Part shown: piece by piece, positions 8,169 to 58,180 of the stretch
Layout: every line of letters starts with the position of its first letter
Numbering within the stretch: position 1 is the first letter of the stretch
Source: Terrabacter sp. Root181
Lineage (GTDB): Bacteria; Actinomycetota; Actinomycetes; Actinomycetales; Dermatophilaceae
Direction of reading: 5' to 3'
DNA length: 64,000 nt
Assembly (NCBI RefSeq): GCF_001428505.1
Contig: NZ_LMHU01000007.1
Coordinates: forward strand, 133-64,132
Made by a program: the position numbers and the translations under genes
The notes under the pieces: generated by a model
Databases searched by the model: none
What the model saw: only the letters and a program-made list of their open reading frames with translations
What the model was told of the DNA's origin: nothing

Positions 8169-10075
8169 GCGATCGCCTCCTGCGCCGTCAGGACCTCGGC
8201 CGGCTCCGTCGCGTGCCAGCACGCCACGCGGCTCCCGCCCGGGCCCGCCGTCAGGGTCGGGTCCTGCTCGAGGCAGCGCTGGGTGGCGAGCGGGCAACGG
8301 GCGGCGTACGCGCAGCCGACGGGGACCTGTGCCGGCTCGACCGGGTGGCCGGGGATGGTGGCGAGCGGGGCGTCGACGTCGGTGGTCATGGCCGGCACGG
8401 CGGCGACGAGCGCGCGGGTGTACGGGTGTCGGGCCCTCGTGCGCAGGTCGGCCGTCGGCAGGTCCTCGACGATCCGGCCGGCATACATGACGAGCACCCG
8501 GTCGCAGACGTCGGCGACGACCGAGACGTCGTGGCTGATGAGGAGGAGAGCGGCGCCCTCCTCGCGGCGTACGTCCTGGAGCAGCGCCAGCACCTGGCTC
8601 TGCACCGTGACGTCGAGCGCGGTCGTCGGCTCGTCGGCGATGATGAGGCGGGGGCTGCCCATCAGTCCCATCCCGATCATGGCGCGCTGACGCATGCCGC
8701 CGGAGAACTCGAAGGGGTACTGGCGGGCGCGGCGCTCCGGGTCCCGGACGCGGACGGCCCGCAGACGGTCGACGGCGCGTTCCGACGCCTCCTTGCGATC
8801 GAGTCCCTGGTGGTGACGGCCGACCTCGGCCAGCTGCGCGCCGATACGCATCGTGGGGTTGAACGAGGTCATCGGGTCCTGGAACACGACGGCGAGCGAG
8901 GTGCCCAGCAGCTTGTCGTGGGTCTGACCGTTCGCCGGCTCCTCGAGCAGGTCGGTCCCGCAGAAGGTGAGGTGCCGGGCGTCGACGCTCGCCGGCTCCT
9001 CGACGAGGCCGGCGATCGCCAGCGCCGTCAGCGACTTGCCGGAGCCTGACTCGCCCACGACGCCCACGGCCTCGCCGACGGCGATGGCGAACGAGACGCC
9101 GCGGACCGGCCGGACCGGGCCGTTCACCCCGGGGAAGGTGACCGAGAGGTCGCGGACGTCGAGCACCAGGTCGCCGTCGGCCTCGTGGTCGTGGCGGAGC
9201 TCGGTCACGGGCGTCTCGCCGCTCGGCACCTGCATCGTGCCGGTGCCCGTCGTCGTGGAGATCCCGAACACCCCGGCGATCGCCTCACCGGTGAGGTTGA
9301 AGGCCAGACCGGCGAGGACCACCATGATGCCGGGCGCGAGCGCCGCGAGCGGGTGCACGAAGATGCCGCTCAGGCCGTCCTGCATCAGCCGGCCCCAGTC
9401 GTACTCCGGCGCCTGGACGCCGAGCCCGAGGAACGACAGCCCGGCGAAGCTCAGCAGGATGGCCCCGGCGGTGATGGTCACGTTGACGATGAGTGGCTCC
9501 GCCACGTTGGGCAGCACGTGCCGAGCCATGATCCGGAAGCGGTTGACGCCCGCGATCCGCGCCGCGGCGACGTACTCGAGCCCGGCAACTCCGGCGACGA
9601 GCGTCTGGCACAGGCGGGCGAGGCCCGGGGCGACCGCGAGTCCGATCGCGAGGACCGCGCCCCTCGCTCCGACGCCGAAGATGACCGCGAAGACGAGGAC
9701 GAGGAGGAGCCCGGGGAACGCCACGAAGACGTTGACGAGCGCGGTGACGAGCCGTCCGAGCCGGCCGCCGAGCAGCTGCGGCGCGGTGCCGAGCACGAGC
9801 CCGATCACCGTTCCGAGCGCGGTCGCCACGAGCGTCAGCGTCAGGGAGAGCCGCGTGGCCACCAGGACCCGGAAGAAGAGGTCGCGGCCCAGGTTGTCGG
9901 TGCCGAACCAGTGCTGCGCCGACGGGCCGGCGAGGATGTTCTCGGTGTCGACCGTACTGGCCTTGTCGCCCCAGAGGATCGGGGCGAAGACCGCCAGCAG
10001 CACGATGAGCGCGAGCAGGCCCAGTCCGACGATGCCGACGGGCGTCTTGACGATGCGGAACCAACGCTGGGACAT
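8165..10075 (-). CDS. Fused oligopeptide ABC permease-ATPase (DppC-DppD type)
   Basis: A 636-residue fusion. Residues 1 to about 275 are a DppC-like permease with an N-terminal membrane helix, about six helices in all and the cytoplasmic coupling loop (EYVAAARIAGVNRF). After a short linker rich in Thr/Gly, the second half is a DppD-like ATPase: Walker A GESGSGKSLT, VFQDPMTSFNP, FSGGMRQR, LIIADEPTTALD, and a C-terminal cluster of Cys residues (CAYAARCPLATQRC) typical of OppD/DppD. There is no frameshift or internal stop; this fused arrangement recurs in actinobacteria. It would form a complete importer with the permease at 10078 and the ATPase at 7401. Confidence 0.9.
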   Translation of the reverse strand: MSQRWFRIVKTPVGIVGLGLLALIVLLAVFAPILWGDKASTVDTENILAGPSAQHWFGTDNLGRDLFFRVLVATRLSLTLTLVATALGTVIGLVLGTAPQLLGGRLGRLVTALVNVFVAFPGLLLVLVFAVIFGVGARGAVLAIGLAVAPGLARLCQTLVAGVAGLEYVAAARIAGVNRFRIMARHVLPNVAEPLIVNVTITAGAILLSFAGLSFLGLGVQAPEYDWGRLMQDGLSGIFVHPLAALAPGIMVVLAGLAFNLTGEAIAGVFGISTTTGTGTMQVPSGETPVTELRHDHEADGDLVLDVRDLSVTFPGVNGPVRPVRGVSFAIAVGEAVGVVGESGSGKSLTALAIAGLVEEPASVDARHLTFCGTDLLEEPANGQTHDKLLGTSLAVVFQDPMTSFNPTMRIGAQLAEVGRHHQGLDRKEASERAVDRLRAVRVRDPERRARQYPFEFSGGMRQRAMIGMGLMGSPRLIIADEPTTALDVTVQSQVLALLQDVRREEGAALLLISHDVSVVADVCDRVLVMYAGRIVEDLPTADLRTRARHPYTRALVAAVPAMTTDVDAPLATIPGHPVEPAQVPVGCAYAARCPLATQRCLEQDPTLTAGPGGSRVACWHATEPAEVLTAQEAIA

Positions 10076-51290: not shown

Positions 51291-51311
51291 GGCCGTGCGG
51301 CGGATTTGCCG

Positions 51312-51329
51312 TAACTCATATATGAGTTA
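51312..51329. promoter_or_regulatory. 18-bp perfect palindrome, candidate autoregulatory operator
   Basis: TAACTCATATATGAGTTA reads the same on both strands. It fills the space between a TTTGCC-like -35 and the TAGCCT -10 box of the HTH-MurA gene. AT-rich in a very GC-rich window, it is an ideal target for the XRE helix-turn-helix that the gene itself encodes. Confidence 0.75.
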
Positions 51330-51333
51330 GCCT
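51328..51333 (+). promoter_or_regulatory. -10 element of the HTH-MurA promoter
   Basis: TAGCCT, then 7 bases, then GTG at 51341. Its first two bases overlap the palindrome. Confidence 0.55.
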
Positions 51334-51340
51334 CGACGTC

Positions 51341-52870
51341 GTGCCTCAGACCTATCTGACCCGGATCGGCGGACTCATCCGCGACGCGCGACGCCACAAG
51401 GGGATGACCCAGTCGGACCTCGCGGACCTCCTCGGTACCTCGCAGGGCGCCGTCACCCGCATCGAGCAGGGCAAGCAGAACCTCAGCCTCGACATGCTGG
51501 CCAAGATCGGCGACGCCCTCGACTCCGAGTTCGTCTCGCTCGGCCACTCCGGCCCGCAGCACCTGCGCATCGTCGGTGGCCAGAAGCTCACCGGCTCGAT
51601 CGACGTCAAGACCTCCAAGAACGCCGCCGTCGCGCTCCTGTGCGCGGCCCTGCTCAACCGCGGCCGCACCACCCTGCGCAGCCTCGCCCGCATCGAGGAG
51701 GTCAACCGCATCCTCGAGGTGCTCGCCTCCATCGGCGTCAAGACGCGCTGGCTGCCCGACAGCAACGACCTGGAGATCATCCCGCCGGCCGAGCTCAACC
51801 TCGACGACATCGACGTCGCGGCCGCCCGCCGCACCCGCACCGTCATCATGTTCCTCGGGCCGCTGCTCCACGAGCACGACGCCTTCCAGCTGCCGTACGC
51901 CGGCGGCTGCGACCTCGGTACCCGCACCGTCGAGCCCCACCTGGCCGCGCTGCGCGCGTTCGGGCTCGAGGTCACCGCGACGCACGGCTTCTACGAGGCG
52001 CGCTCGGACCGCTCGGTCAGCCCTGACCGTGCCATCGTGCTCACCGAGCGCGGCGACACGGTCACCGAGAACGTCCTCATGGCGGCCGCGCGCCACCCCG
52101 GTACCACGGTCATCCGCAACGCGAGCCCCAACTACATGGTCCAGGACCTGTGCTTCTTCCTCGAGAAGCTCGGCGTGCGCATCGACGGCATCGGCACGAC
52201 GACCCTGACGGTCCACGGCGTCGCCGAGATCGACGTCGACGTGGAGTACTCCCCCAGCGAGGACCCCATCGAGGCGATGAGCCTCATCGCCGCCGCCGTC
52301 GTCACCGACAGCTCGATCACGATCCGTCGGGTGCCGATCGAGTTCATCGAGATCGAGCTCGCGACCCTCGACGGCATGGGGATGAAGTACGACCTGACGC
52401 CGGAGTACACCTCGGCCAACGGCAAGACGCGTCTCGTCGACCTCACGACGATCCCCGGGCCGCTCCACGCGCCGACCGACAAGATCCACCCGATGCCGTT
52501 CCCGGGCCTCAACATCGACAACCTGCCGTTCTTCGCGCTCATCGGGGCCGTCGCCGAGGGCAGCACGATGATCCACGACTGGGTCTACGAGAACCGGGCC
52601 ATCTACCTCACCGAGCTGACGAAGGTCGGCGCCAAGGTGCAGCTGCTCGACCCGCACCGCGTCATCGTCGAGGGCCCGACCCGCTGGCGCGCGGCCGAGG
52701 TCGTGTGCCCGCCGGCGCTGCGTCCCGGCGTCGTCGTGCTGCTCGCGATGCTCGCCGCGCCGGGCACGTCGGTGCTGCGCAACGTCTACGTCATCAACCG
52801 CGGCTACGAGGACCTCGCCGAGCGCCTCAACGCGCTCGGCGCGACGATCGAGGTCTTCCGCGACATCTGA
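51341..52870 (+). CDS. XRE helix-turn-helix fused to UDP-GlcNAc 1-carboxyvinyltransferase-like (MurA) domain
   Basis: A 509-residue fusion. Residues 5-65 are an XRE-type helix-turn-helix (KGMTQSDLADLLGTSQGAVT RIEQGK). From about residue 75 it is a two-lobed EPSP-synthase-family domain like MurA. Key residues are kept: K93-N94 in TSKNAA, the PEP-binding Cys C190 in YAGGCDLGTR, and an Asp in GLNIDNLPFF. It may therefore be catalytic, or sense the sugar nucleotide. HTH-MurA fusions are known in actinobacteria beside a normal MurA, but their role is not established to my knowledge. The palindrome in its promoter suggests self-regulation. Its last 67 bases overlap the convergent next gene. Confidence 0.85.
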   Translation: MPQTYLTRIGGLIRDARRHKGMTQSDLADLLGTSQGAVTRIEQGKQNLSLDMLAKIGDALDSEFVSLGHSGPQHLRIVGGQKLTGSIDVKTSKNAAVALLCAALLNRGRTTLRSLARIEEVNRILEVLASIGVKTRWLPDSNDLEIIPPAELNLDDIDVAAARRTRTVIMFLGPLLHEHDAFQLPYAGGCDLGTRTVEPHLAALRAFGLEVTATHGFYEARSDRSVSPDRAIVLTERGDTVTENVLMAAARHPGTTVIRNASPNYMVQDLCFFLEKLGVRIDGIGTTTLTVHGVAEIDVDVEYSPSEDPIEAMSLIAAAVVTDSSITIRRVPIEFIEIELATLDGMGMKYDLTPEYTSANGKTRLVDLTTIPGPLHAPTDKIHPMPFPGLNIDNLPFFALIGAVAEGSTMIHDWVYENRAIYLTELTKVGAKVQLLDPHRVIVEGPTRWRAAEVVCPPALRPGVVVLLAMLAAPGTSVLRNVYVINRGYEDLAERLNALGATIEVFRDI

Positions 52871-56293: not shown

Positions 56294-58180
56294 GTGGCCA
56301 CCCGCAGCGAGACGCAGCCCGCCGACCAGGCGGGTGCTGAGCAGGCCGACCAGGTCGTCGGCCTGCTCGAGCTGCTGGCCGCCGACGCACCGGTCGCCGA
56401 GATCGCCGCCGCCGACGCCCCGAGCGAGGCGCGGGACCTCGCGCTGCGGATCGCGAGCGCCCGCGAGGTCCACCAGCACCGCGAGGCCGGCCTGGCCGCC
56501 CTGCTCGACACGGCCCGCGAGCTCGCGACCGAGAGCGACCCGGGCTCGGTGCTCGACGCGATCGTGCGCCGGGCACGCCGCCTCGTCGGCACCGACCTCG
56601 CCTACCTGACGCTCTACGACCCCGACGCCGGCGACACCTTCATGCGAGCCACCGACGGTTCCGTCTCGGCGGTGTTCCAGTCGGTGCGGCTCGCGCTGGG
56701 CGCCGGCCTCGGCGGCCTCGTCGCCTCGACGCGCAAGCCCTACTGGACGGCCGACTACTGGGCCGACGAGCGCTTCCGCCACACCAACGCGATCGACGGC
56801 GCCGTCGGCGAGGAGGGCATCATCGCGATCTGCGGGACGCCGCTCATCGTCGAGAAGCACTTCGTCGGCGTGCTCTTCGCCGCCAACCGGTCCTCGCGCC
56901 CGTTCACCCGCGAGGAGGTCGGCCTCCTCGGCAACCTCGCCACCCTGGCCGCGGTCACCCTGGTGCAGACCCGCGCCCTCGCCGACGCCGAGAACGCCCT
57001 GGCCGCCCTGTCGGACGCCCACGAGACGGTCCGGCAGTACGCCGAGGGCGTGGAGAAGGCGGCCGCCGCGCACGACCGCTTCGCCTCCCTCGTGCTCGGT
57101 GGCGGCGGCGTCGACGACATCACCCACGCCCTCGCCGAGCTGCTGGGCGGCTGGGCCGTGCTCGTCGACGAGCACGGCCACCGGCACAGTGCGTCCGGTC
57201 CCGCCCCGGCGCACGACGACACCGGGAGCGACCCCTTCTCCGCCCTCGACGCCATCCCCGACCTCGGTGCCGGTCGCCTCGTCGAGCGCGACGGCGTCTA
57301 TGCCGTGGCCGTCACCGCTGCGCGCGAACGGCTCGGCACGATCTATGTCGGCGGCCTGACCCTCAGCGACTCCGACCAGCGCACCGTCGAGCGCGCCGGT
57401 GTCGTCACGGCCCTCGTCCTGCTCTTCGAGCGGCAGGCCGCAGACGCCCGGCAGTCCGCGCGCAACCGCCTCGTCAGCGACCTCGTGAGCGCACGGGGCT
57501 CCCGGGAGGAACGCCTGACGCTCGCCCGCGCCGTCGGCTTCGACCCGCAGAAGCCCTTCTGCCTGCTCGTGCTCCGGGGCGACGAACCGACCGGCCACCG
57601 GGCCCTGCTCATCTCCGCGAGCGCAGCCACGGGCGAGGCCTCGCTCGTCGGCTCCCACGACGGCGACGTCATCGCGCTCGTGCCCGGGACCGACGCCGAC
57701 GGCCTGGCCCGCGCCGTCGCCGCACGCATCGGCAAGCGCACGTGCGTCACCGTGGCCGGTGTCGGTCCGGTCAGCGACGTCGACGACGTGAGCGAGGCGC
57801 ACGAGGAGGGGCACCGCACCGTCGGCGCGCTCATCGCGCTCGGCCACCGGGGCAAGGGCGCTGCCGCGACCCAGCTCGGCTTCGCCGGTCTCATCGTCGG
57901 ATCCGCTCCCGACGTCGACGAGTACGTCCGCAAGCTCCTGGGCCCCGTCCTCGACTACGACGAGCGGCGCGGCACCGACCTCGTGGGCACCCTGGCGGCC
58001 TACTACGCGGCCGGTGGCAGCCCCCGGCACGCCGCCGGCACGCTGCACGTCCACGTCAACACGGTCTCGCAGCGCCTCGAGCGCATCGCAGCGTTGCTCG
58101 GGGAGACCTGGCAGCATCCCGACCACTCGCTCGAGCTGCAGATCGCGCTGCGCCTGCGCGCCCTCCAGGCCCCGGCCTGA
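56294..58180 (+). CDS. GAF domain PucR-type transcriptional regulator
   Basis: A 628-residue regulator. A GAF domain covers about residues 85-225 (LVGTDLAYLTLYDPDAGDTF, then CGTPLIVEKHFVGVLFAANR). A coiled linker and a GGDEF-like/CdaR middle follow, and the C-terminal PucR helix-turn-helix is AAGTLHVHVNTVSQRLERIA. Such regulators often sit beside and control the SDR or catabolic gene next to them. It has its own leaderless promoter 92 bases after the SDR stop. Confidence 0.88.
   Translation: MATRSETQPADQAGAEQADQVVGLLELLAADAPVAEIAAADAPSEARDLALRIASAREVHQHREAGLAALLDTARELATESDPGSVLDAIVRRARRLVGTDLAYLTLYDPDAGDTFMRATDGSVSAVFQSVRLALGAGLGGLVASTRKPYWTADYWADERFRHTNAIDGAVGEEGIIAICGTPLIVEKHFVGVLFAANRSSRPFTREEVGLLGNLATLAAVTLVQTRALADAENALAALSDAHETVRQYAEGVEKAAAAHDRFASLVLGGGGVDDITHALAELLGGWAVLVDEHGHRHSASGPAPAHDDTGSDPFSALDAIPDLGAGRLVERDGVYAVAVTAARERLGTIYVGGLTLSDSDQRTVERAGVVTALVLLFERQAADARQSARNRLVSDLVSARGSREERLTLARAVGFDPQKPFCLLVLRGDEPTGHRALLISASAATGEASLVGSHDGDVIALVPGTDADGLARAVAARIGKRTCVTVAGVGPVSDVDDVSEAHEEGHRTVGALIALGHRGKGAAATQLGFAGLIVGSAPDVDEYVRKLLGPVLDYDERRGTDLVGTLAAYYAAGGSPRHAAGTLHVHVNTVSQRLERIAALLGETWQHPDHSLELQIALRLRALQAPA

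Follow-up and report, generated by a model that had tools for sequence, protein, structure and literature searches.

A MurA fused to an XRE domain and predicted to repress its own promoter in Terrabacter sp. Root181 and its relatives

A gene of Terrabacter sp. Root181 encodes an XRE helix-turn-helix (HTH) domain joined to a MurA domain (HTH-MurA; Table 1). MurA is UDP-N-acetylglucosamine 1-carboxyvinyltransferase, the enzyme of the first committed step of wall synthesis and the target of fosfomycin. With good confidence, the fusion can be considered a working MurA whose XRE domain sits on its own operator and represses its own, probably leaderless promoter. In many soil actinobacteria, the conserved site lies over the promoter of the fusion gene and is rare elsewhere in the genome, so that the gene is very probably switched off by its own product. 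Many actinobacteria have the fusion as their one MurA and lack the ordinary enzyme. An HTH dimer would occupy the 18-bp operator, which fills the promoter spacer and reaches into the -10 box; because the site covers both, the bound dimer should block RNA polymerase at its own promoter, and the level of MurA would thus limit itself. Self-repression, proposed in an earlier note on this DNA, is strongly supported by the comparison of orthologues: the predicted operator is kept in place, overlaps the -10 box, is lost together with the recognition helix and is usually present as one site per genome. Direct binding, dimerisation, repression rather than activation, and enzyme activity are presumed here from sequence comparison.

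Table 1. Features of the HTH-MurA gene and of its promoter
Feature	Positions (a)	Strand	Remarks
-35-like hexamer TTTGCC	51305..51310	+	17 nt before -10
Operator (predicted), perfect 18-bp palindrome TAACTCATATATGAGTTA	51312..51329	.	family consensus nATCTCATATnTGAGATA
-10 box TAGCCT (family TAnnnT)	51328..51333	+	TA common to operator end
HTH-MurA gene	51341..52870	+	GTG start; 509 aa, single frame
XRE/HipB-like helix-turn-helix domain	51377..51529	+	residues 13-63; PF01381, 49.8 bits (cut-off 23)
Recognition helix region TSQGAVTRIEQ	51437..51469	+	residues 33-43
MurA (EPSP-synthase fold) domain	51575..52828	+	residues 79-496; PF00275, 155 bits (above cut-off)
K93-N94 (E. coli K22-N23)	51617..51622	+	80/80 orthologues
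C190 (E. coli C115)	51908..51910	+	80/80 orthologues
a Positions are those of the window, i.e. the whole stretch of 64,000 nucleotides that was analysed.

The fusion protein and its active site

The architecture given in the earlier note, an XRE domain followed by a MurA domain that keeps K93-N94 and C190, was found again: both Pfam domains score above their cut-offs, and the residues align with K22, N23 and C115 of E. coli MurA (numbering checked by alignment). The HTH belongs to the XRE (Cro/C1-type) domains according to PF01381. Its S34 and Q35 are invariant (39-row alignment A2). The top NCBIfam match of the HTH is TIGR03070 (HipB-like), below its cut-off (56.8 vs 71.65 bits); the second-best is NF006015, a model of an anaerobic-benzoate regulator. 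The nearest folds of the isolated HTH, in a structure comparison, are those of C.BclI, HipB, C.AhdI and ClgR. The AlphaFold model of the whole fusion (pLDDT 86.1) reaches a TM score (by target length) of about 0.90 against MurA structures; the score against NikO is 0.84. In this model, residues 62-69 form a low-confidence linker that joins the HTH and MurA domains. The MurA subfamily profile NF006873 gives 329.8 bits (cut-off 297); the MurA equivalog profile TIGR01072 gives 312.7 bits, under its cut-off of 392.7.

K22, N23, R91, C115, R120, D305, R331, R371 and R397 (E. coli numbering) are catalytic and PEP-site residues; C115 is the target of fosfomycin in other MurAs. All of them, as well as H125 and D231, are unchanged in 80/80 orthologues. 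Changes found in 80/80 orthologues are K160 to E, S162 to G, V163 to D, G164 to T, E188 to N, R232 to P, T304 to I and D369 to a residue other than Asp. Several of these changed residues sit at UDP-sugar-pocket positions. Canonical actinobacterial MurA-like proteins retain S162, E188, R232 and D369 in 20, 19, 19 and 20 of 20 sequences, respectively (set drawn from 24 loci with a second MurA-like gene; L151, L164, L165 and L167 left out). The nearest non-fused group (six rows) has Asp at position 115 and His or Tyr at position 232; S162, V163, E188 and D369 are unchanged in this group. With none of the 80 fusions keeping S162, V163, E188, R232 or D369, the reaction or its kinetics could differ from those of other MurAs.

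The ligand state of the MurA domain might, speculatively, gate DNA binding. In the earlier note, the protein was proposed to sense UDP-GlcNAc or PEP. The wider form, in which the UDP-GlcNAc, PEP or UDP-MurNAc state sets DNA binding and hence murA transcription, is a serious possibility, if short of a probable one. UDP-MurNAc is an end-product inhibitor of MurA. If binding is gated, a closed UDP-MurNAc complex acting as co-repressor would be favoured, about as likely as substrate-driven release. Gating is consistent with the PEP-pocket residues and the catalytic Cys, invariant in 80/80 orthologues, with the low-confidence linker between the domains, and with the analogues BzdR (PMC3602430) and BirA and PutA (PMC6978683), as far as the available parts of these sources describe them. 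It is opposed by the altered UDP-sugar-pocket positions and by the fact that plain concentration-dependent autorepression accounts for all the data. The full claim is put forward tentatively: in a wide range of actinobacteria, a sole essential MurA would be the transcription factor of its own gene, and its binding to DNA would depend on whether wall precursors or fosfomycin fill the active site.

Operator and promoter

The 18-bp palindrome described in the earlier note is real: TAACTCATATATGAGTTA is present at 51312-51329 and is the sole match at ≤3 mismatches in the own genome (4.94 Mb), where its core CTCANATNTGAG also occurs once. Rarity by palindrome length was ruled out as evidence (the window contains five perfect palindromes of at least 18 bp). 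18-mers as AT-rich as TAACTCATATATGAGTTA represent 1.6e-5 of the 18-mers of the window, and this one stands at a start codon; the weight rests on the AT-richness and the conservation of the site, not on the length of the palindrome. A perfect GC-rich palindrome of 26 bp was also seen at 57154-57179, within a long reading frame (56294-58180).

The palindrome had been placed exactly between the two promoter boxes. It does fill the spacer, but its last TA is also the first TA of the -10 box, so that it does not lie exactly between -35 and -10. The hexamer TTTGCC is the same in several Terrabacter relatives (e.g. L004, L005, L006, L007, L008); the -35 stretch is poorly conserved family-wide. A distance of 6-7 nt from the -10 box to the start codon is the spacing of leaderless mRNAs. 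From the -10 box to the GTG start at 51341 there are 7 nt, and the HTH-MurA mRNA is for this reason probably leaderless.

The upstream regions of 125 orthologues (L002-L031, L033-L047, L065-L144) were examined; they correspond to 123 distinct strings, and a few genomes are present twice (e.g. L016 and L068). A site was counted when at least 13 of its 18 letters agree with the consensus TATCTCATATATGAGATA. Conservation of the palindrome upstream of orthologues, the check proposed in the earlier note, was borne out: the operator was found at the matching promoter place in 119 of the 123 distinct upstreams (Terrabacter relatives, Streptomyces, Nonomuraea), vs 0.4% of shuffled controls at ≥12/18 and none at ≥14, these 119 upstreams not being independent because the set is dominated by Streptomyces and kin (57 loci). 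Ten further orthologue upstreams all carry the site (10/10). Information reaches 1.2-2.4 bits at 15 of the 18 site positions and 0.03-0.38 bits in the preceding 20 bases. The TAnnnT at the end of the site is also kept (T in 119, A in 116 and the sixth-place T in 115 of the 119 aligned sites), and the first in-frame start codon follows the -10 box after 6-7 nt in 105/119 cases (8-9 nt in 6, 0-5 nt in 8). The third position and its mirror form a T-A pair in 82/119 sites and an A-T pair in 12/119, and are non-complementary in 25/119; the swap from T-A to A-T in these 12 aligned sites keeps the symmetry. Complementary letters are found at position 1 and its mirror in just 49/119 sites, and at position 8 and its mirror in 36/119. 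A natural spacing variant, with half-sites 2 bp further apart (TATCTCA-TATATG-TGATCTA), was observed in L082, L104 and L114 (Ornithinimicrobium, Serinicoccus).

Self-activation is known from XRE controller proteins such as C.BclI and C.AhdI, two of the near folds of the HTH. Activation of its own promoter by the fusion, alone or combined with repression, is nevertheless unlikely: activators usually take positions at the -35 or further upstream, whereas a dimer on the operator, over the spacer and the -10 box, would exclude the polymerase.

Fusion and operator across genomes

The fusion was found in 42 of 58 related genomes (one copy cut by a contig end), including all 36 own-family genomes of this sample; later exceptions within the own family are G140 (no fusion) and G194 (split fusion). 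In a phylum-wide draw, 16 of 396 genomes have it at E ≤1e-60, one of them split (G194); 11 of these 16 belong to one genus, whose genomes measure 6.1-9.9 Mb. A contig scan led to Terrabacter and related genera, Streptomyces, Kitasatospora, Nonomuraea and others (best 80 of 578 relatives). A second kind of fusion suspected in G036 (match from query residue 10) was rejected: no HTH domain was found in it with Pfam.

Thirty genomes were searched with PF00275, a domain family that includes both MurA and AroA. Exactly two members were found in 24 of them, one AroA-like protein and the fusion (first batch: G011, G012, G014, G016, G017, G020, G022, G025, G028, G030, G031, G269; second batch: G009, G010, G018, G019, G021, G026, G027, G032, G033, G035, G045, G049); these 24 were preselected as genomes in which a first search showed no second MurA, and PF00275 agreed in 24/24. 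The six others comprise four genomes with the fusion and another MurA (G000, G005, G013, G015), G140 and G194. Completeness is at least 90% and contamination at most 5% in 23 of the 24 sole-MurA genomes (G045: 91% complete, 6% contamination). NCBIfam assigned 8 of the 10 proteins submitted to AroA (own genome and 7 of the 24); in the other 17 sole-MurA genomes, AroA was deduced from the PF00275 score and from the lack of a second MurA-length match. Among 36 own-family genomes, 21 have the fusion as sole MurA and the other 15 also match canonical MurA. The own genome encodes both the fusion and a canonical MurA (TIGR01072, 481 bits). The latter (L223, about 8400-9660) has Asp at the fosfomycin-target position Cys115, where the fusion has Cys, and is near a gene that reads by eye as ATP synthase beta. 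Five Streptomyces-type genomes carry at least one canonical MurA-like gene beside the fusion.

MurB is present in all 24 sole-MurA genomes. With the fusion as only MurA and MurB in every one of them, the domain must presumably still be an enzyme there: a MurA-type enzyme, not only a sensor. Because the fusion is the only MurA of these genomes, a point missed in the first reading, it would be better described as an enzyme with a repressor domain than as a sensor made from an enzyme. A MurA domain devoid of activity and serving purely as effector domain, like that of BzdR, could explain the substitution of E188, R232, D369 and S162-V163 in all 80 orthologues, as well as the long stem branch (2.55) of the fusions, which form one clade in the tree (support 100/100; their placement beside the nearest non-fused group could, as the program warns, result from long branches). 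This explanation is very unlikely in view of the 24 genomes that have MurB and no other MurA, and of the invariance of K22, N23, R91, C115, R120, D305, R331, R371 and R397.

Sites with ≤3 mismatches were searched in 28 genomes (the own genome and 27 others; 24 with the gene and 4 without). The HTH-MurA promoter site was recovered in all genomes with the gene but one (23 of 24); the one missed, in G030, is more divergent. Seventeen of the 23 have no other match. Nine extra sites (2-3 mismatches), spread over the other six, could be second targets or chance matches; they lie away from the fusion (G012:C4:16864, G017:C15:64759, three in G022, two in G248, one in G010, one in G011). Where the gene is absent (four genomes), the scan yielded a single match, in G036 with 3 mismatches, and nothing in the other three. 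The reversed-pattern control gives one match in all 28 genomes together. The operator is largely private to the HTH-MurA gene. The suggestion of the earlier note that the palindrome might also be found at other wall genes finds no support (one site in the own genome; further, weaker matches in only 6 of 24 genomes). A wall-gene regulon is not supported by the scans of the own and 27 other genomes, with the promoter site as sole match in 17/23.

Of the 24 sole-MurA genomes, 23 carry the operator, G028 (L018) being the exception. Four distinct upstreams lack the site: L018, L024, L047 and L076. The SQ of the recognition helix is absent in 2 of the 123 sequences, L018 (TQPS) and L047 (MTEQ), and both are without operator; SQ is retained in 121, of which 119 retain the operator. 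Elsewhere the helix reads TSQS, TSQG or a close variant (TSQN in L009, SSQG in L005). In L024 and L076 the helix is intact, yet little remains of the site beyond its right half. Loss of SQ and loss of the operator, as aligned here, coincide in two separate genera, with just two cases. In the near-complete genome G194, the sole MurA is an HTH-MurA split by a frameshift (L227:6832-8500), with a divergent HTH and no operator; for this split, a sequencing error and a real change are indistinguishable. Alternatively, an unrelated regulator might use the palindrome as its operator while the HTH acts elsewhere. This is most improbable, since the site tracks the gene (23 of 24 genomes with it vs one weak match in four without) and is absent from the two orthologues whose recognition helix is altered.

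In Streptomyces, the fusion is very probably murA2 (SCO5998/sven5810), given its divergent aconitase gene and a BldM-WhiI motif; the assignment is made by synteny and motif. In 16 loci of the best 80 of 578 relatives (15 Streptomyces, 1 Streptomycetaceae) and in L062, the fusion is preceded by a divergently oriented aconitase gene; in most of these 80 loci, none was found within 4 kb. In L069 (Janibacter), the aconitase gene is on the other side of the fusion. SCO5998 (MurA2) adjoins the aconitase gene SCO5999, according to the part of PMC12161575 that was available. The BldM-WhiI motif and a footprint on murA2 (sven5810) are described in the available text of PMC4125116. At least 10 of the 12 letters of this motif are found in 28 of 57 loci, vs 2.3% of shuffles; fewer than 10 are found in the 29 others. 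The motif-like sequences lie mostly at one fixed distance upstream of the operator (L091, L097, L103, L105 and other Streptomyces-type loci). This arrangement suggests developmental activation layered on autorepression: murA2 would very probably be activated in sporulation by BldM-WhiI, and presumably repressed by its own product. The opposite proposal, that the Streptomyces fusion is not MurA2, had been drawn from S. violaceoruber (L132/L222), in which no aconitase gene was found beside the fusion; it was overturned by the aconitase gene elsewhere and by the BldM-WhiI motif. A SigB promoter printed for SCO5998 (PMC8346170, available part) has a sequence unlike the operator promoter, and two fragments taken from it had no match in the fusion loci examined. 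Overexpression of murA2 was without the phenotype of whiI overexpression (PMC11005364, available part). No HTH and no autoregulation is mentioned in the available parts of these four papers on murA2 (PMC12161575, PMC8346170, PMC4125116, PMC11005364), and the top matches of a literature search contained nothing on any HTH-MurA or its autoregulation.

Comparison with known systems

Control of MurA is described as post-translational in the available parts of the sources on CwlM in mycobacteria (PMC4946905), on PrkA and ReoM (PMC7286690) and on PASTA-kinase signalling in Enterococcus (PMC12077105). If the present reading is true, a self-repressing MurA would be a one-protein homeostat for wall synthesis; if gating is also true, the first committed step would read its own metabolite pool and set its expression with one protein and one operator. 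HTH-MurA would also be a natural scaffold for biosensors of precursors or fosfomycin, and a case of an autoregulated paralogue replacing an essential enzyme.

With MurA itself, the fusion shares the fold (TM about 0.90 by target length) and the catalytic and PEP residues; it differs by an added N-terminal XRE domain, its own operator and changed UDP-sugar-pocket positions.

BzdR, in the part of PMC3602430 that was available, consists of an XRE domain, a linker and a shikimate-kinase-like effector domain that has lost its enzyme activity. It is the nearest architecture among the systems compared: a DNA-binding domain linked to an enzyme-derived domain. It differs in this loss of activity, whereas the fusion is the only MurA of 24 genomes; a C-terminus of the BzdR type is absent from the fusion, whose C-terminal domain is PF00275.

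The HipB site is TATCC-N8-GGATA (PMC3376134, available part), an 18-bp autoregulation operator with a 5-8-5 layout. The site of the fusion, TATCT-N8-AGATA, has the same layout, and the XRE fold is common to HipB and the HTH of the fusion. HipB is a stand-alone antitoxin paired with HipA, whereas the HTH of the fusion is part of an enzyme-like protein and scores under the TIGR03070 cut-off.

BirA and PutA, in the available part of PMC6978683, are enzymes doubling as direct transcriptional repressors. They are the nearest in logic: the fusion would likewise be an enzyme with a site at its own promoter, as predicted from conservation and co-loss. Their DNA-binding folds differ from XRE and their pathways differ from that of MurA; they repress the bio and put operons, whereas the only conserved target of the fusion is its own gene.
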